A stretch of DNA of 64,000 nt, from positions 3,410,001 through 3,474,000 of the forward strand of contig NZ_CP011273.1 in the NCBI RefSeq assembly GCF_001610895.1. Direction: 5' to 3'. Position 1 is the stretch's first letter; every line of letters begins with the position of its first letter. Under the pieces are notes generated by a model that saw only the letters and a program-made list of their open reading frames with translations, was not told where the DNA came from and did no database searches. Both the position numbers and the translations under genes were made by a program. Shown here piece by piece: positions 5,538 through 64,000 of this stretch. This stretch comes from Planctomyces sp. SH-PL62 (GTDB lineage Bacteria; Planctomycetota; Planctomycetia; Isosphaerales; Isosphaeraceae).

Positions 5538-5754
5538 TAGGGGCCGCGCCGTCGCGCTTCACGAAGTCGACGACGTCCACGCCGGGGGGCAGCTGGATCG
5601 GCCCCTGGTTGAGCCGCATCACCAGGTAGCCCACCTGGTCGGCCTTGGCCCTGGCCTCGGCCTCGGTCACCTTCCCGATGGTGAAGTAGCGGCGCCTGCC
5701 CTGGTAGAGGAACTGGCCGCACCAGCCGTTGCCCTTCTTCTCGATGGTCGCCAT
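5538..5754 (-). pseudogene. Tyrosine recombinase/integrase, N-terminal fragment
   Basis: From the ATG at 5754 the minus strand reads MATIEKKGNGWCGQFLYQGR, then YFTIGKVTEAEARAKADQVG and GVDVVDFVKRDGAAP. This is the arm-type DNA-binding start of a phage-like tyrosine integrase. The gene stops making sense at the right end of the IS at 5537. The core-binding and catalytic domains (R..HxxR..Y) are absent, so it cannot recombine. It lies about 100 bases from the 3' end of tRNA-Leu, the classical position for an island integrase. Confidence 0.7.
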
Positions 5755-5851
5755 GGGTGTCGCCCCACGCCGTCGCAACGCATCCGCCGGGTTTATCGAA
5801 GAATCACCGAAGACCGCCCCTTGACGCACCCGGATATCGTTGTAAGTCCAA

Positions 5852-5936
5852 TGCCGGCGGTGGGAGTCGAACCCACACGGGCGTTCCCGCCCAGAGGATT
5901 TTAAGTCCCCAGCGTCTGCCGTTCCGCCACGCCGGC
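5852..5936 (-). tRNA. tRNA-Leu (anticodon TAA)
   Basis: An 85-nt class II tRNA. The acceptor GCCGGCG pairs with CGCCGGC, followed by discriminator A. The anticodon loop is CTTAAAA, the variable arm is long, and the T-loop is GGTTCGACTCC. CCA is not encoded. It lies 28 bases downstream of tRNA-Ser and probably shares its transcript. Its 3' end faces the integrase remnant, which makes it the likely attachment site. Confidence 0.95.
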
Positions 5937-5964
5937 GGGCGCGGGGGCGAAGATCGTTCGGGAG

Positions 5965-6051
5965 CGGAGGGGGTGGGATTCGAACCCACGGAAGGTGTGA
6001 CCCTTCTACGGTTTTCAAGACCGTCCCAATCGACCACTCTGGCACCCCTCC
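5965..6051 (-). tRNA. tRNA-Ser (anticodon TGA)
   Basis: An 87-nt class II tRNA. The acceptor GGAGGGG pairs with CCCCTCC, with discriminator G. The anticodon loop is CTTGAAA, with a long variable arm and T-loop GGTTCGAATCC. It lies 25 bases downstream of the bifunctional nuclease gene on the same strand. Confidence 0.95.
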
Positions 6052-6076
6052 GAACGCCTCGCGCGCCTTGGTTCAA

Positions 6077-6472
6077 TTACTGGCTGGCCTCGTCGATGAT
6101 GTCTTCGGCCACGTAGATGGGGACGTCGACGGCGACGGCCAGGGCGATGGCGTCGCTCGGCCGGGAATCGACCTCGATCGTCTCCCCCTCCTGGCGGATC
6201 CTCAGCTTGGCGAAGTACGTGTGGTTGCGGAGCTCGCTGATGTAGATGTCCTGCAGTTCGCCCCCCAGCGACTCGATCGTGCTGGCCAGCAGGTCGTGCG
6301 TCAGCGGTCGCACGGTCGGCTGGTTCTTGACGCGGCGGTCGATGCTCGTGGCCTCGAAGATGCCGATCACGATCGGGAACATACGCTCGCCGTCGACTTC
6401 CTTGAGGAAGATGATATGTTGATCGCTGTTCTCATTGATGATGATCCGCATGAGATCCATCTGGACCGGCAC
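6077..6472 (-). CDS. Bifunctional nuclease (BFN/DUF151) family protein
   Basis: About 131 aa covering one BFN domain: MRIIINENSDQHIIFLKEVD at the start, the core FPIVIGIFEATSIDRRV, and the late motif SRPSDAIALAVAVDVPIYVA. Plant members of this family have DNase/RNase activity. Bacterial roles are poorly defined. I prefer the GTG at 6472 because AGGAAGG lies about 10 bases upstream. A GTG at 6481 and an ATG at 6451-6460 are alternatives. tRNA-Ser and tRNA-Leu follow on the same strand. A strong hairpin separates it from valS upstream. Confidence 0.85.
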   Translation of the reverse strand: MPVQMDLMRIIINENSDQHIIFLKEVDGERMFPIVIGIFEATSIDRRVKNQPTVRPLTHDLLASTIESLGGELQDIYISELRNHTYFAKLRIRQEGETIEVDSRPSDAIALAVAVDVPIYVAEDIIDEASQ

Positions 6473-54137: not shown

Positions 54138-54371
54138 GTGCGCGCCGACGGCGCGCTCAGCAAGCCGGAACGGGATCGCTACCTGCGGAACACCGGCTTC
54201 GACCGCCTCGTCGCCGAGGGCGTCTATACGTGCGGAGGCTTCGCGAACGCCTTCGGCCGTTCGTCGCGCCTGCTGGCGGAACTCGAACTCCCCCCGGCCG
54301 TCCGCGAGCAGGCCGCGACGCTCCTGGACGGCCACCTCGCGCTCGGCGGCCTCGATCATCGCCGCGATTCA
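54138..54371 (+). pseudogene. Possible truncated gene antisense to the nrdB tail
   Basis: From a GTG at 54138 a plus-strand frame reads ALSKPERDRYLRNTGFDRLV, then AEGVYTCGGFANAFGRSSRL and ELELPPAVREQAATLLDGHL. More than 85 percent of third codon positions are G or C, better than the opposite strand. The frame then runs on into nrdB antisense without its own stop. I take it as a gene that lost its 3' end. The family is not recognised and it may be spurious. Confidence 0.3.
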
Positions 54372-55367
54372 GAATTCCTCGCCGAAGACCACGTCGCCGG
54401 TCACGCCGACCTGATACGCGGAGACGCGGCGCTCGAAGAAGTTCGCCAGCTCCTGGACGTCCTGGAGCTCCATGAACGCCAGCGGGTTCTTCGACCCGTA
54501 GGCCGGCGCGATGCCGAGGGATTCGAGCCGGCGGTCGGCGACGTACTCCAGGTATTTTCGCAGATCCTGGAGGCTCAGGCCGACCACGCCGTGGGAGAGG
54601 ACGTCGCGGGCGAACTCCGTCTCGCAGTCGACGGCCTCGCGGAGCATCGCCACGACCTCGCCCTCCAGCGCCGCGTCGAACAGGTCCGGCTCCTCGCGAC
54701 GCGCCGTCGAGATGACGTTGAACGCGAAGGCGATGTGCGCGCTCTCGTCGCGGAAGACCCAGTTCGTCCCCGTCGCCAGGCCGTGGAGGAGGCCCTTGGA
54801 TCGCAGGAAGTAGACGTAGGCGAAGGCCGCGAAGAAGAACAGACCTTCGATGCACGCGGCGAAGCAGATCAGGTTCAGCAGGAACCGCCGGCGATGCTCG
54901 CGGGTCTCAAGCCGGTCGAGTTGCTCGATGGAGTCGATCCAGCGGAAGCAGAAGTCGGCCTTCCGCTTGATCGACGGGATGTTGTCGATCGCCGCGAACG
55001 CCTGCTCGCGCTCGGCCATGTCGGGGAGGTAGTTGTCGAGCAGGGTCAGATAGAAATGGACGTGCAGCGACTCCTCGTAGAGCTGGCGCGAGAGGTACAT
55101 CCGCGCCTCGGGGGAGTTGACGTGCTGGTAGAGGTTCAGCACCAGGTTGTTGCCGACGATCGAGTCGCCCGTGGCGAAGAACGCCACCAGGCGCTGAATC
55201 AGGTGCTTCTCCGCGGGCGTGACGCGGCGGTCGAGGTCGGCCAGGTCTGTCGAGAAGTCGACCTCCTCGACCGTCCAGGTGTTCTTGATCGCCGCCTTGT
55301 ACATCTCGAAGAAGATCGGGTATCGCATCGGACGCAGGGTCAGGTCCATGCCGGGATCGAGCAGCAT
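54369..55367 (-). CDS. nrdB: Class I ribonucleotide reductase, beta (radical) subunit
   Basis: 332 aa. The di-iron ligands and radical Tyr are visible: Asp in FFATGDSIVGNN, Glu/His in LYEESLHVHFY with Tyr four residues after the His as in E. coli Y122, Glu in CIEGLFFFAAF, and Glu/His in FRDESAHIAF. The C-terminal tail that docks into NrdA ends GVTGDVVFGEEF. With NrdA it reduces ribonucleotides to deoxyribonucleotides and needs O2 to make its radical. It follows nrdA by 31 bases and is presumably under the same cobalamin riboswitch. Confidence 0.95.
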   Translation of the reverse strand: MLLDPGMDLTLRPMRYPIFFEMYKAAIKNTWTVEEVDFSTDLADLDRRVTPAEKHLIQRLVAFFATGDSIVGNNLVLNLYQHVNSPEARMYLSRQLYEESLHVHFYLTLLDNYLPDMAEREQAFAAIDNIPSIKRKADFCFRWIDSIEQLDRLETREHRRRFLLNLICFAACIEGLFFFAAFAYVYFLRSKGLLHGLATGTNWVFRDESAHIAFAFNVISTARREEPDLFDAALEGEVVAMLREAVDCETEFARDVLSHGVVGLSLQDLRKYLEYVADRRLESLGIAPAYGSKNPLAFMELQDVQELANFFERRVSAYQVGVTGDVVFGEEF

Positions 55368-55398: not shown

Positions 55399-57780
55399 TT
55401 ACTGGCACGACTCGCACGACTCGGGATTCTCGAGCGAGCACGCGACGTCTCGGGGCGTCGGCGGCGCCTGCGGGACGGTCGTCTTGGCGATCCCCGTGGC
55501 GGGGCGGGATCTCAGGTAATAGGTCGTCTTCAGCCCGCGCTTCCAGGCGTACATGTACATGGAAGAGAGCTTGCCGATCGACGGGCTCTCGACGAAGAGG
55601 TTGAGCGACTGGCTCTGGTCGATGAACGGGGCGCGGTCGGCGGCCATGTCGATCAGCGACCGCATCGGGATTTCCCAGACGGTGCGGTAGACGCGGCGGA
55701 GGTCGGCCGGGAGTTCCTCGACGCCCTGCACCGAGCCCTCGGCGAGCTTGATCCGGTTGCGGACCGCCTCCGTCCAGAGGCCGCGCGCCTTCAGGTCGCG
55801 GACGAGGTGGCGGTTGACCTGGAGGAACTCCCCGGAGAGCGTCTCTCGCTTGAAGAGGTTGGAGACCTGGGGCTCGATGCATTCGTAAGCCCCGACGATC
55901 GAGGCGATCGTCGCGGTGGGGGCCACCGCCACCAGGAGCGAGTTGCGCAGGCCGACGCGGCGCACGCGCCCGCGAAGCTCGGCCCACCGGGGGGCGTCCG
56001 AACCTTCGCGGTCCCACAGGTCGACCTGGAGCACGCCTTCGGCCGCCCGGGTCTCGGCGAAGGCCAGGTGCGGCCCCAGGCGCTCGGCCAGGTCGCAGGA
56101 CGCGGTCAGGGCGTGGTAGTAGATCTCTTCCTGGATCCTGGCGGAGAGTTCCCGGGCCTCGGCGGCGTCGAACGGCAGGCCGAGCTGGAAGAAGACGTCC
56201 TGGAGCCCCATCACGCCGAGCCCGACCGGCCGCCATCGCCGGTTCGACGCCTCGGATTCGGGGGTCGGGTAGAAGTTCACGTCGACCACCGCGTCCAGGA
56301 ACGGGACGGCCGTGCGGACGGTTTCGGCCAGGGCTTCGAAGTCGAACCCCCCGTCGCCGACGTGCCGTGCGAGGTTGATCGAGCCGAGGTTGCAGACGGC
56401 CGTCTCGCCGTCCGAGGTCGCCTCGACGATCTCGGTGCAGAGGTTCGACGAGTGGACGACGGCGCCCGGCGTGCGCGTCTGGTTCGACTTCCGGTTGCAG
56501 GCGTCCTTGAAGTTCATCCAGCCGTTGCCCGTCTCGGCCAGCGTCTTCATCATCCGGGCGTAGAGGTCGCGCGCGGCGACCGTCTTGACGGCCAGGCCCC
56601 GCGCCTCGGCTTCGGCGTAGGCCGCCTCGAACGCCTCGCCGTGGAGGTCGGGCAGGTGGGGGACCGTCTTGGGATCGAACAGCGACCAGGCCCCGCCTTC
56701 CTCCACACGCCGCATGAACAGGTCCGGGACCCAGTTGGCCAGGTTCAGGTTGTAGGTCCTCCGGGCCTCGTCGCCGGCGTTGTCCTTGAGCTCCAGGAAC
56801 TCCTCGACGTCGGCGTGCCAGGTCTCCAGGTAGACGCAGCAGGCGCCCTTGCGCCGCCCCCCCTGGTTCACGGCGGCGACGGAGGAGTCGAGCGTCTTGA
56901 GCCAGGGGACCACGCCGTTGCCGTGGCCATTCGTCCCCTGGATGTAGGAGCCTCTCGAGCGGATGCGGTGGAAGGCCAGGCCGATCCCCCCCGCGTACTT
57001 GGAGAGCTTGGCCACGTCCGTATAGCGGCCGTAGATCCCTTCCAGGCTGTCATCGGGCGAGTCGAGCAGGTAGCACGACGACATCTGCGGCCGGGGCGTC
57101 CCGGAGTTGAACAGGGTCGGCGAGCTGGGCATGTAGCGGTGCGACGCCATCAGCTCGAACAGGTCGAGGGCGTCGGCGACGTCGCGGGAGAGCCCGCACG
57201 CGACCCGGAGGAAGAAATAGGCGGGCGTCTCGATCACGTCGCGGGTGCTGGGATGCCGCAGCAGGTAGCGGTCGTAGATCGTGCGGAGCCCGAAGTACTC
57301 GAAGTCGTCGCGGGGCCGGGTCGCGGCGGCGTTGAGCTTGCGGGCGTTCGCGGCGACGTAGTCGGCGGTGGCCTCCGCGACCAGGCCCAGGCGGCGTCCG
57401 GCGGCGATCGCCTGGGAGAACGACTGGATGTCCTGGTTCATCACCTCCTTGGCGATGAAGCAGTCGAGGAGACGGGCCGCGAGCAGGGAGTATTCCGGCT
57501 CCTCGGCGATGAGCGAGGCGGCCGTCTGGATCGAGAGCTGGTCGAGCTCGCGGGTCGTCGCGCCGTCGAAGAGTCCGCCGATCGTCTTCACGGCGATCCG
57601 CATCACGTCGACGGCCGCCAGCCCGCCCGACGAGCGGCGGACGGCCCGCACGATCTTGTTGACGTCGACCGGCTCCAGGCCGCCGTTCCGCTTGCGGACG
57701 CGCATGCCGCCGTCCTCGTCGGCCGCCCCCGCGCGAGGCGCCTCGCCGTTCGCGGGGGCGTTCTTCAACTCCAGACTCAT
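55399..57780 (-). CDS. nrdA: Class I ribonucleotide reductase, alpha (catalytic) subunit
   Basis: 793 aa. An N-terminal ATP-cone (MRVRKRNGGLEPVDVNKIVR) points to dATP feedback. The catalytic barrel has a redox Cys in QMSSCYLLDSPDDS, the Asn-Cys-Glu triad in SSNLCTEIVEA, the partner Cys in ETAVCNLGSINLARH, and PTATIASIVGAYECIEPQVS. The radical-relay Tyr pair is in GLKTTYYLRSRP. The C-terminal swinging cysteines are in ENPESCESCQ. It is preceded by about 340 bases of leader containing a cobalamin riboswitch. Confidence 0.96.
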   Translation of the reverse strand: MSLELKNAPANGEAPRAGAADEDGGMRVRKRNGGLEPVDVNKIVRAVRRSSGGLAAVDVMRIAVKTIGGLFDGATTRELDQLSIQTAASLIAEEPEYSLLAARLLDCFIAKEVMNQDIQSFSQAIAAGRRLGLVAEATADYVAANARKLNAAATRPRDDFEYFGLRTIYDRYLLRHPSTRDVIETPAYFFLRVACGLSRDVADALDLFELMASHRYMPSSPTLFNSGTPRPQMSSCYLLDSPDDSLEGIYGRYTDVAKLSKYAGGIGLAFHRIRSRGSYIQGTNGHGNGVVPWLKTLDSSVAAVNQGGRRKGACCVYLETWHADVEEFLELKDNAGDEARRTYNLNLANWVPDLFMRRVEEGGAWSLFDPKTVPHLPDLHGEAFEAAYAEAEARGLAVKTVAARDLYARMMKTLAETGNGWMNFKDACNRKSNQTRTPGAVVHSSNLCTEIVEATSDGETAVCNLGSINLARHVGDGGFDFEALAETVRTAVPFLDAVVDVNFYPTPESEASNRRWRPVGLGVMGLQDVFFQLGLPFDAAEARELSARIQEEIYYHALTASCDLAERLGPHLAFAETRAAEGVLQVDLWDREGSDAPRWAELRGRVRRVGLRNSLLVAVAPTATIASIVGAYECIEPQVSNLFKRETLSGEFLQVNRHLVRDLKARGLWTEAVRNRIKLAEGSVQGVEELPADLRRVYRTVWEIPMRSLIDMAADRAPFIDQSQSLNLFVESPSIGKLSSMYMYAWKRGLKTTYYLRSRPATGIAKTTVPQAPPTPRDVACSLENPESCESCQ

Positions 57781-58011
57781 GTTCGGCTCCTGTTCCTTGG
57801 AGGGGGGAGGGCCGGGACCGCCCGAGAGCGCCCCCGGCCGGATCGGCCGTCAGGTCGCGGCGACGGGGGCGAAATTCGGCGGATGGGAGAGGAGCCGAAC
57901 GGTCGTCACGGCCGGAACGGCGGCGGCCGGATGGACGGGGCGGACGAAGAGCGCGGGACGCGGGCCGTCGGCCGCGACCGGGCCTGTTCGAGGCGAATCC
58001 AAGGCGCGATC

Positions 58012-58290
58012 CTTCCTGCCGGTCCGGGCAGATTGGGGCGTCCGGACCGGTACGCAGGAGGGCTCCGCACGCGCGGAAGGGCCTGACCTGCCGCGTACCC
58101 GGAGCGGGGCACCCTTGGCATGCTCGACGGGCAGGTCTTCTGGCTTACGGCTACGATCGATCCCCGGGCGGCCTTCCCGCGACGCGAGCGTCGCAGTGGC
58201 TTATGTGGCCGGATCTCTCGCCGAATACAGCAGCGGCCCTGCGCCGGATTCTCACCGGCTTCCCTTTTCATCCGTCCGAACGCGGACGGA
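58012..58290 (-). repeat. Duplicated leader segment, copy 1
   Basis: About 280 bases that recur at 59338-59617 with roughly a dozen differences and one single-base indel. The repeat covers the riboswitch aptamer and about 100 bases downstream. Confidence 0.85.
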
Positions 58291-58315
58291 ACCCGTCGAT
58301 GCTGGGAGCATATCC
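58120..58315 (-). promoter_or_regulatory. Cobalamin riboswitch upstream of nrdAB
   Basis: Read on the minus strand it contains the conserved core AAGGGAAGCCGGTGAGAATC (P3/P4 side), GCCACTG paired across a hairpin with CGGGAAGGC, and the B12 box AAGCCAGAAGACCTGCC (complement of 58131-58147). A GC-rich stem (CGTCCG/CGGACG) precedes it. Downstream, at 58012-58050, lies a strong hairpin (CCGGTCCGG with CCGGACCGG) that could serve the expression platform. B12 binding should lower class I RNR expression. Confidence 0.92.
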
Positions 58316-58356
58316 TATTTTCGACGCCCAGGCCAACCGGCCGCGGGGGATTTCGA

Positions 58357-59322
58357 TCAGACGACCCGGCCGCCCAGCCAGGAGTACCGGGTGGGAGGTT
58401 GTTCGGCGATCCGCCCGCCGATCTCATCCGCGAGCATCTCATAGCGTTCGGGCTGGCGGCAGAGGTAGTCCTGGGCCCTGGCCGCCTTGCCGGAGAACGA
58501 ACGCCTTTCCAGGTTCCAGGCCGTGTTCAGGTGTCGGATGATCGACGCATAATCCCGGGACGTGTAGACGCCGATCCGTTGCGCGGCGGCGGCGAACTGG
58601 TCGAACAGGTTCGGATCGCGTCCGTCGGTCATCTGGCTGCCGGGCATGGAGATCAGCTTCCTGAGCATGTTTCGGTAGGCGAACAGCGTGTTCTCCGGGT
58701 CGCGCTCGAAGAGTTCGCCGACGACCCGGGTGTAGAAGACCTCGTGGCGGGTCTCGTCGGCGGCGATCTTGCGGCAGATCCGGGCGAGGTTCTCCTCGCC
58801 GCGCCCCTGGGAGAGCCTGGCGATGTTCCCGTGGCTGATCCGGGTCGCCCGCTCCTGGAACGCGGCGTAGATCAGCCCGGAGTGGGGGTCGCCCTCGTTC
58901 CCCGGAGAGAAGCCGTTGCTGATGAGATGGTGGATGGTCCGCTCGATCGCCGCCATGTCGACGCGGCCGGAAAGCCGTAGGTAGGCGTTGAGCAGGTCGC
59001 CGTGGCGGTTCTCCTCGGCGGTCCATCTCCGCAGCCATTGGGCCCAGGGGGTCTCGCTGGTCCCCGTCGGGTCCTTCACGATGTGCTCGAGCGAGACGGT
59101 GTAATTCGGCAGGGCCTCCTCGGTCACCATATTTCCGACGAGCACGACCAGGAGCTCGTCGGGCAGGACGAGCGAGGACTCGCGCAACCGCTGCACCTGT
59201 TCGGACCAGTCCTCGGCGGTCAGGTCCGGCAGGAGTTCGGTCGGCTGCCAGGCCTGGTCGATCGGGCTGAGGAGGGAGAGGTTGTCCGCGACGTAATCTT
59301 GCAAACTCTCGATGACATTCAT
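58357..59322 (-). CDS. Acyl-ACP desaturase (soluble di-iron, plant stearoyl-ACP type)
   Basis: 321 aa from the ATG at 59322. The frame is open upstream into the leader repeat, which is not coding. Both iron-binding motifs are present: EENRHG (RWTAEENRHGDLLNAYLRL) and DETRHE (IAADETRHEVFYTRVV). These match the EENRHG/DEKRHE pair of FA_desaturase_2 enzymes. It inserts a double bond into acyl-ACP using O2 and reduced ferredoxin, giving unsaturated membrane lipids. A cobalamin riboswitch stands upstream, and nrdAB with a second copy of the switch stands downstream. Confidence 0.92.
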   Translation of the reverse strand: MNVIESLQDYVADNLSLLSPIDQAWQPTELLPDLTAEDWSEQVQRLRESSLVLPDELLVVLVGNMVTEEALPNYTVSLEHIVKDPTGTSETPWAQWLRRWTAEENRHGDLLNAYLRLSGRVDMAAIERTIHHLISNGFSPGNEGDPHSGLIYAAFQERATRISHGNIARLSQGRGEENLARICRKIAADETRHEVFYTRVVGELFERDPENTLFAYRNMLRKLISMPGSQMTDGRDPNLFDQFAAAAQRIGVYTSRDYASIIRHLNTAWNLERRSFSGKAARAQDYLCRQPERYEMLADEIGGRIAEQPPTRYSWLGGRVV

Positions 59323-59337
59323 CGCTGCGGCCTGAAT

Positions 59338-59617
59338 CTTCCTGCCGGTCCGGGCAGATTGGGGCGTCCGGATCGAATGCGCAGGAGGGCTCCGCACGCG
59401 CGGAGGGGCCTGGCCTGCCGCGTACCCGGAGCCGGGGCACCCTTGGCATGCTCGACGGGCAGGTCTTCTGGCTTACGGCTACGATCGATCCCCGGGCGGC
59501 CTTCCCGCAACGCGAGCGTCGCAGTGGCTTATGTGGCCGGGTCTCTCGCCGAATACAGCAGCGGCCCTGCGCCGGATTCTCACCGGCTTCCCTTTTGATC
59601 CGTCCGCATGCGGACGG
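59338..59617 (-). repeat. Duplicated leader segment, copy 2
   Basis: Partner of 58012-58290. The differences cluster in the hairpin nearest the gene and in the loop of the first stem (CATG here, AACG in copy 1), leaving the aptamer core unchanged. Confidence 0.85.
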
Positions 59618-59640
59618 GGCCCATCGAGATGAGGAGCCTA
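59445..59640 (-). promoter_or_regulatory. Cobalamin riboswitch upstream of the acyl-ACP desaturase gene
   Basis: It has the same elements as the switch before nrdA: GGGAAGCCGGTGAGAATCC, GCCACTG with GGGAAGGC, and the B12 box AAGCCAGAAGACCTGCC (complement of 59459-59475). About 120 bases separate the B12 box from the desaturase start, and there is no gene between. Repression of the desaturase by B12 is the direct prediction. Confidence 0.9.
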
Positions 59641-63058: not shown

Positions 63059-63405
63059 AGAACCGCCGAACGAGCCCAATTCTCAGAAGCCGAAAGTGAG
63101 ATCAAAAATATGGCATGTAAAGACTTACGTCTGATGGCTTCGTTCGCGGGGGGCTGCGAGCGAAGCCAATTTCCGCGAGGCTGCGTGGCCTCGGAATTGT
63201 TGCCGGGGGCCGGGGACGCAGCGGGCCTTTCACGGGACGGCGGCGTCCCCCAGGCTCGGGCGCGACATCGAAAAATCGCCGAACGAAGCCAATTTCAGGC
63301 TGGCGGCGAGATTCGTAAAATGTCTTGTATCAAGAATTTGTGGCCGATGGGTTCGTTCGCTGGGGGCTCCGAGCGAAGCCAATTTCGGCGGGGCTTCGCG
63401 GCTTC
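63059..63405. repeat. Two-copy intergenic repeat with GAAGCCAATTTC motifs
   Basis: Units at about 63059-63195 and 63271-63405 share CGCCGAACGA.(G)CCAATT, an AT-richer centre (ATGGCATGTAAAGAC versus ATGTCTTGTATCAAG), then TTCGTTCGC.GGGGGCT.CGAG and CGAAGCCAATTTC. Identity is patchy, higher at the ends. The intervening 75 bases are unique. No gene is present in 62726-63403. Confidence 0.65.
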
Positions 63406-64000
63406 AGGTCCCTTGCCAGGGGCCGGAGACGAACTGGCCCTCGAACAGGGTGGCGACGACGGGCTCGTCGGTCTCGAAGAGGAGGCGGTGGGGGTCGTCC
63501 TCGTCGCGGTCGGGGAGGCGGACGACGGCGAGGTCGGCGGACTTGCCGGCGCGGATCGAGCCGACGGCGGTCTCGGCGCGGAGGGCCCAGGCGCCGAAGA
63601 GGGTGGCCATGGTCAGGAGCAGCTCGCCGGAGAGCGAGCCGTCGCGGGCGTGGAGGAACCGGGCCTCGTCGAGGACGCCCAGGCTCGGGCTCGACGCCAG
63701 GCTGTCCGTCCCCAGGCAGACGATCGCCCCTTTCGCCAGGAGCGCCCGATAGGGGTGGGCGTCGTGGCCGAACCGGGCGTTGGTCCGGGGGCAGTAGGCG
63801 ATCGCCGCTCGATGCCCGTTCGAGGACGCCTCGGGCCGGAACTGCCAGAACTCCGAGGGCTCGATGTACGTCCCGTGCGCCACCAGCCAGTCGGCGTGGC
63901 GGAGGTCCCCCTTGCGGATGTAGTCGGTCGGCCGGGGGCCGATCGGCTCCCACTCCTCATCCCAGGCCCCCAGGTCTTCCAGGTAGCTCCGCAGGGGGCC
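63404..64000 (-). CDS. Amidohydrolase family protein (5' end outside window)
   Basis: At least 198 aa, open to the edge of the window. The C-terminal half of a metal-dependent deaminase or hydrolase is seen: DWLVAHGTYIEPSEF, where the His should be a metal or active-site ligand, YCPRTNARFGH, the catalytic Asp in CLGTDSLASSPSLGVLDEAR, and the return strand AVGSIRAGKSADLAVV. The text is closest to chlorohydrolase/guanine or S-adenosylhomocysteine deaminase types. The substrate is unknown. Confidence 0.85.
   Translation of the reverse strand, partial: GPLRSYLEDLGAWDEEWEPIGPRPTDYIRKGDLRHADWLVAHGTYIEPSEFWQFRPEASSNGHRAAIAYCPRTNARFGHDAHPYRALLAKGAIVCLGTDSLASSPSLGVLDEARFLHARDGSLSGELLLTMATLFGAWALRAETAVGSIRAGKSADLAVVRLPDRDEDDPHRLLFETDEPVVATLFEGQFVSGPWQGT

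Follow-up and report, generated by a model that had tools for sequence, protein, structure and literature searches.

Two cobalamin riboswitches lie in series on the minus strand of the window, the stretch of 64,000 nucleotides from Planctomyces sp. SH-PL62 that was analysed, and the leader that carries the first of them (B) is best explained as a copy of the leader that carries the second (A), placed directly in front of an acyl-ACP desaturase gene. In this reading, to which we assign a probability of roughly two in three, the leader of an ancestral DUF6580-metE-nrdAB operon would have been copied as a module and fused just 5' of the desaturase start before the desaturases of this genome (G000) and of its relative G005 separated, the core shared by A and B would probably have been homogenised afterwards by gene conversion, and two translational switches in series, B acting on the acyl-ACP desaturase and A on nrdAB, would be repressed by B12. 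The RNA class is an ordinary member of RF00174, and the unusual part is the copied position before the desaturase. Read along the minus strand, the locus consists of riboswitch B (59639-59441), the desaturase gene, riboswitch A (58311-58113), a DUF6580 remnant, nrdA and nrdB, with the following features:

59441 to 59639, minus strand: riboswitch B, cobalamin aptamer 5' of the desaturase gene (RF00174, 101.8 bits, model positions 1-189)
59337 to 59440, minus strand: expression platform B, placed by alignment and folding
59388 to 59337, minus strand: hairpin of platform B, in which the Shine-Dalgarno-like AGGAAGA (59343-59337) is paired; the desaturase ATG follows 14 nt later
58360 to 59322, minus strand, stop codon at 58357-58359: acyl-ACP desaturase, plant-type soluble diiron enzyme (PF03405, E 1.2e-124)
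58113 to 58311, minus strand: riboswitch A, cobalamin aptamer 5' of nrdAB (RF00174, 112.9 bits, full model)
58010 to 58112, minus strand: expression platform A, placed by folding and by alignment with the metE leaders of genomes G002, G014 and G031
58061 to 58011, minus strand: hairpin of platform A, which pairs AGGAAGG (58017-58011)
57850 to 58002, minus strand: DUF6580 gene remnant of 50 codons with a TTG start, between leader A and nrdA, aligning with the N-terminus of the 189-aa DUF6580 protein of G002
55399 to 57780, minus strand: nrdA, large subunit of class I ribonucleotide reductase (TIGR02506, 710 bits against a cut-off of 341; PF02867, PF00317 and ATP-cone)
54369 to 55367, minus strand: nrdB, small subunit of class I ribonucleotide reductase (PF00268, E 9.7e-80)

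Both aptamers were recovered by cmscan as matches over the whole RF00174 model (1-189 of 189), with 112.9 and 101.8 bits as compared to a gathering score of 31.5, and five further copies of the family are present in the same genome. A and B are 1.33 kb apart on the same strand; A occupies the 5' leader of nrdAB, with NrdJ encoded elsewhere in the genome, and B occupies the 5' leader of the desaturase gene, whose product is itself no known B12 isozyme. No U-tailed terminator was found in platform A or B and no sigma-70-like promoter before either riboswitch, and inspection of the leader sequences by eye revealed no clear complementary loop for an L5-L13 kissing interaction. The desaturase carries the whole PF03405 domain and both diiron EExxH/DExxH motifs that define soluble acyl-ACP desaturases, and it matches the castor delta-9 desaturase 1afr at E 1.1e-103, with its EENRH and DETRH aligned with EENRH and DEKRH of the plant enzyme. 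A second acyl-ACP desaturase paralogue of this genome (G000:C1:6164665-6165618), 68% identical, is not accompanied by a riboswitch and groups with one in G003. Elsewhere in the window, at 63133-63245 and 63346-63458, there is a direct repeat of 113 nt whose copies are 76% identical and lie 213 nt apart from start to start.

A sequence-only reading of this locus had described the two leaders as nearly identical over about 280 bases, and this was indeed confirmed by blastn, which aligns leader A (58314-58012) with leader B (59642-59338) at 93.8% identity in 306 columns, with an E of about 1e-129 against a small database. The likeness includes the platform and the ribosome site, as the aptamers are 94.9% identical (10 mismatches in 198 aligned pairs) and the platforms 94.2% identical over 104 pairs, the latter unlike any other pair in the genome. 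Such likeness exceeds mere conservation of the family, since the aptamer of A is 80-83% identical to those of the other five RF00174 copies of the genome, whose leaders do not align to the A platform. On the 5' side of the aptamer, A and B are only about 42% identical, almost like unrelated DNA. In an alignment of six leaders, the aptamers of A and B disagree in 14 columns, of which 12 fall within 58310-58269 (the 5' arm of P1 and the P3 loop), and the remaining approximately 155 nt of the aptamer contain two differences, at 58213 and 58181, the latter being a change of C to U opposite G that preserves the stem as a G-U pair. A second cluster at 58041-58052 is a 12-nt patch of the platform on the 5' side of the ribosome-site hairpin, after which 31 nt including the ribosome site are identical in A and B. 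Hence, the earlier description of the aptamer core as unchanged was nearly right, requiring correction for two positions. The stem CGTCCG/CGGACG is preserved around a changed loop, which reads CGTT in A and CATG in B.

The origin of the module is indicated by the metE/nrd operons of relatives. A leader with the platform tail CTGCCCGGACCGGCAGGAAGGA precedes metE, followed by nrdA and nrdB, in G002 of the same genus and in G014 and G031 of the same family. The metE leader of G002 is 87.7% identical to A over 333 nt, through the platform, and drives the gene order DUF6580-metE-nrdA-nrdB, in which an intact DUF6580 gene of 189 codons starts just behind the ribosome site and metE comes next. In the window, leader A is followed by the 50-codon DUF6580 frame and then by nrdA, with metE gone; the remnant matches PF20221 weakly (E 0.046), whereas the G002 protein matches it with E 7.5e-45. 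The window genome has no full-length MetE, its best PF01717 match reaching 95.8 bits in a frame of 343 codons as compared to 518.7 bits in G002, and it encodes MetH. On account of the G002 operon order, the DUF6580 remnant and the lost metE, A is the old metE/nrd leader and B the copy. The comparison shows the module to be the ancestral leader of the DUF6580-metE-nrdAB operon, with DUF6580 and metE lost behind A in this genome. DUF6580 (PF20221; L097:9339-9908 and window 57850-58002, both on the minus strand) is a small predicted membrane protein encoded by the first gene behind the G002 B12 riboswitch and may be a candidate component of B12 or cobalt transport; no paper naming it was found in the open-licence literature. 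The nrdA gene of G002 (L097:3474-5872, minus strand) is split into two overlapping frames by a frameshift near codon 320, and therefore the class I reductase of that genome may be broken or the sequence in error.

Folding indicates how the platforms could act on translation. In A, B, G002 and G014, the platform can pair CCTCCTGC with GCAGGAAG, and the inner GGTCCG/CGGACC helix so formed hides the ribosome site; in the platform of G031 an alternative register is preferred for pairing of the Shine-Dalgarno sequence. The predicted energy of the ribosome-site hairpin is -27.6 kcal/mol for A, -26.2 for G031, -22.6 for G002, -21.9 for G014 and -18.3 for B, which is thus the weakest of the five, with one pair of the inner helix replaced by a mismatch and outer pairs lost. 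Ensemble folding leaves the ribosome-site bases unpaired at 57% in B as compared to 9-19% in the other four. In the B leader as joined to the desaturase gene, AGGAAGA is situated 14 nt before the ATG. The tuning of the expression platform proposed in the earlier reading is in line with this weaker hairpin at the level of a folding prediction, and because of the weaker hairpin a looser repression is predicted for the desaturase than for nrdAB.

The direction of switching is not derivable from base pairing, GGCAGG being complementary to the 3' strand of the aptamer as well as to the anti-Shine-Dalgarno strand CCTGC, and a naive reading of its pairing would give an ON switch. Repression by B12 is instead suggested by the riboswitch family, by the targets and by the pair of nrdAB with the B12-dependent NrdJ, which is encoded by the window genome. 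Genes for nrdAB in genomes that also encode NrdJ, and metE, are classical targets of B12 riboswitches, in which B12 represses the B12-independent isozyme. Such repression is summarised for metE in one article (PMC9600662) and for B12-independent isozymes generally in another (PMC3766115). When B12 is plentiful, the ribosome site would be held in the downstream hairpin, both enzymes would be low and the cell would depend on NrdJ; when B12 is scarce, the desaturase and nrdAB would be made. Physiologically, the bacterium probably adjusts both enzymes to the supply of B12.

The descent of the two leaders was addressed with a tree of 81 aptamers, taken from the family and from selected genomes of the planctomycete family f3. 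In this tree, A and B come out as sisters (support 100/95), with G002 and G032 outside them in a clade of A, B, G002 and G032 (99/96), and together with the ancestral metE/nrd operon this supports the earlier proposal that a regulatory module was copied to a neighbouring gene. It is very improbable that A and B are instead an ancient pair arranged as riboswitch-metE-riboswitch-nrdA in family f3, each kept by selection and alike only through conservation of the aptamer: G139 and G255 do carry one riboswitch before metE and another before nrdA, and the window has the same layout with the desaturase replacing metE, but the f3 nrdA riboswitches sit in a distant and different part of the tree, and outside the aptamer A and B still show 94% identity in platform and ribosome site, as no other pair in the genome does. 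Ancient paralogy with the f3 nrdA riboswitches is contradicted by the 81-sequence tree. A sizeable minority chance is left for a single recent event that copied leader A to the desaturase gene after the split from G002, with no conversion and a faster evolution of B thereafter. It would account for A and B being sisters relative to G002 and for their identity of 93.8% as compared to 88% between A and G002, and it is compatible with the NrdJ tree, in which G002 lies outside G000, G001, G003, G004 and G005, so that G005 left G000 after G002 did; a duplication that fell between these two splits would therefore be possible with no conversion. Against such late copying stands the excess of A-B identity over that of orthologous leaders, even though G005 already possesses the fused tail. 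The desaturase of the window is sister to that of G005 (89/77), a genome of the same genus in which no class I nrdA was found at E <= 1e-240 and no RF00174 match in the surroundings of the desaturase gene. The desaturase leader of G005 aligns with B over about 43 nt, a stretch that takes in the loop of the hairpin, the ribosome strand and some of the spacer, with a score of 36 that was reached by 0 of 2000 shuffles, as compared to 83-2000 of 2000 shuffles for 17 other desaturase leaders; since G005 keeps this B-type tail, the fusion is older than the split of the G000 and G005 desaturases. Nevertheless, A and B are identical in the shared 31-nt platform tail, where the G005 leader differs at several positions, and all five orthologous leader pairs of G000 and G005 (76.1, 84.3, 85.2, 85.7 and 88.9%; orthology from best matches and the tree, two of the pairs being compared over just 197 and 207 columns) fall below the 93.8% of A and B.

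The identity to A also appears to be distributed as a mosaic, in that G002 is closer than B in the P1 5' arm and P3 (0.83 against 0.73) and in the platform patch (0.50 against 0.42), and B is closer than G002 in the core (0.98 against 0.95) and in the platform (0.97 against 0.88), with a Fisher p of 0.003, or 0.008 without the promoter stretch, for segments that were defined after seeing the data. A rough scaling on locus L006, which is 84.3% identical to G005 and 80.7% to G002, gives an expected A-B identity without conversion of about 90%, as compared to the 94% observed. Because A-B identity exceeds that of the orthologous leader pairs and because of the mosaic segments, an older duplication with later homogenisation of the core by gene conversion is the preferred account, though not proven, at somewhat better than even odds; its weak points are the single short G005 remnant of 43 nt, the post hoc segments and a 5' arm of B that may evolve faster. 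Accounts of a recent duplication or conversion, as first proposed for this locus, therefore stand only in part: an old duplication followed by conversion fits better, and a single late event fits poorly with the G005 tail and with a 5' arm that is nearer to G002. Where leaders of relatives can be compared, neither copy resembles its own orthologue more than it resembles the neighbouring copy, and the copies are closer to each other overall, by tree and by identity, with the exception of the 5' arm segment. It is furthermore conceivable, but unlikely, that riboswitch B is a passenger, transcribed without regulatory use to the desaturase and kept only for its youth. In favour of a passenger, the window holds the only one of 20 family desaturase loci with a riboswitch upstream, G005 has no aptamer at its desaturase gene, and both the hairpin strength and the bit score of B are below those of A. 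However, the binding core of B has hardly changed, with 2 differences over about 155 nt, at one of which the stem persists as G-U, and the desaturase start lies 14 nt after the ribosome site of the leader itself.

The distribution among relatives differs between the two targets. Class I nrdA of the window type (E <= 1e-240) occurs in 12 of the 397 genomes of the class, and in all 12 a riboswitch lies 5' of nrdA or of its operon. For PF03405 desaturases, a B12 riboswitch was found 5' of one out of 20 loci in 45 family genomes, and no B-type leader reached the gathering score before the 19 others, among which the G008 locus begins at a contig end with its upstream side off the contig; because of this single occurrence, the link with the desaturase could be an accident of duplication. 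In G032 (L034:10445-11223), a riboswitch comes immediately after the desaturase gene and is itself followed by the second half of nrdB, nrdA being absent; this is a thin metagenome assembly with a coverage of 1.65 (L156), and its truncation was left out as evidence. In G139, G014 and G031 (L133, L059 and L066), B12 riboswitches occur in divergent pairs separated by a few hundred bases. Other B12 riboswitches adjoin DUF1559 prepilin-like genes in several planctomycetes (L094, L004 and L059) or DUF4465 genes (L005, L007 and L060), two of the latter with PEP-CTERM anchors; DUF4465 is reported to bind B12 (PMC13398666).

As to why a desaturase should respond to B12, a speculative reason is offered by two B12 enzymes of the genome that have to do with lipids or acyl-CoA, namely HpnR, the hopanoid C-3 methylase, and methylmalonyl-CoA mutase. 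It is a doubtful idea that the supply of B12 controls the unsaturation of membrane lipids in this lineage, the oxygen-dependent desaturase being switched on at low B12 as a B12-dependent lipid activity fails, and that activity might, speculatively, be HpnR, methylmalonyl-CoA mutase or an as yet undiscovered B12-dependent pathway to unsaturated fatty acids, as was proposed for OLE1 by Kazanov et al. If true, the placing of two unrelated desaturase folds under B12 riboswitches on separate occasions would indicate that the metabolic link is real.

The type of switch is well known, and it is the desaturase that is unusual as a gene under B12 riboswitch control. No report of a B12 riboswitch with an acyl-ACP desaturase was found in the open-licence literature, a scope that makes this absence weak evidence, and the excerpted text of PMC3766115 does not mention desaturase or nrd in relation to tandem cobalamin riboswitches. 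The membrane desaturases of COG1398 (OLE1 type) are not known to be homologous to the soluble PF03405 type. One such gene, ole1, was likewise placed downstream of a B12 riboswitch in metagenomes by Kazanov et al. 2007, who proposed a B12-dependent counterpart enzyme (PMC2211319); the window enzyme differs from it in being a soluble diiron PF03405 protein of a planctomycete, with a leader traceable to a metE/nrd operon. A second, unrelated type of fatty-acid desaturase thereby joins the targets of B12 riboswitches, and the suggestion of 2007 of a B12-dependent counterpart, or of a B12-linked control of the membrane, becomes directly testable. Classical RF00174 riboswitches before metE or class I nrdAB belong to the same aptamer family as A and B, but the window has two near-identical copies in series, the first on a desaturase and the second with metE lost behind it. 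The f3 arrangement of G139 and G255 (L123, L133, L120 and L144) likewise gives each of two consecutive genes a B12 riboswitch of its own; there, however, the second switch belongs to a distant lineage of RF00174 and is no copy of the first. A direct repeat with a B12 riboswitch is also found in G047 (L094:4028-4594 and 5538-6103; 568 nt at 96% identity, with 1.5 kb between the copies' starts), but it includes the start of a DUF1559 gene, so that gene start and leader were duplicated together, unlike in the window. Here the riboswitch moved as a complete cassette of aptamer, platform and ribosome site to a new gene, and the relatives display the donor operon, its decay and the residue of the copying event, possibly with a later homogenisation between the copies.
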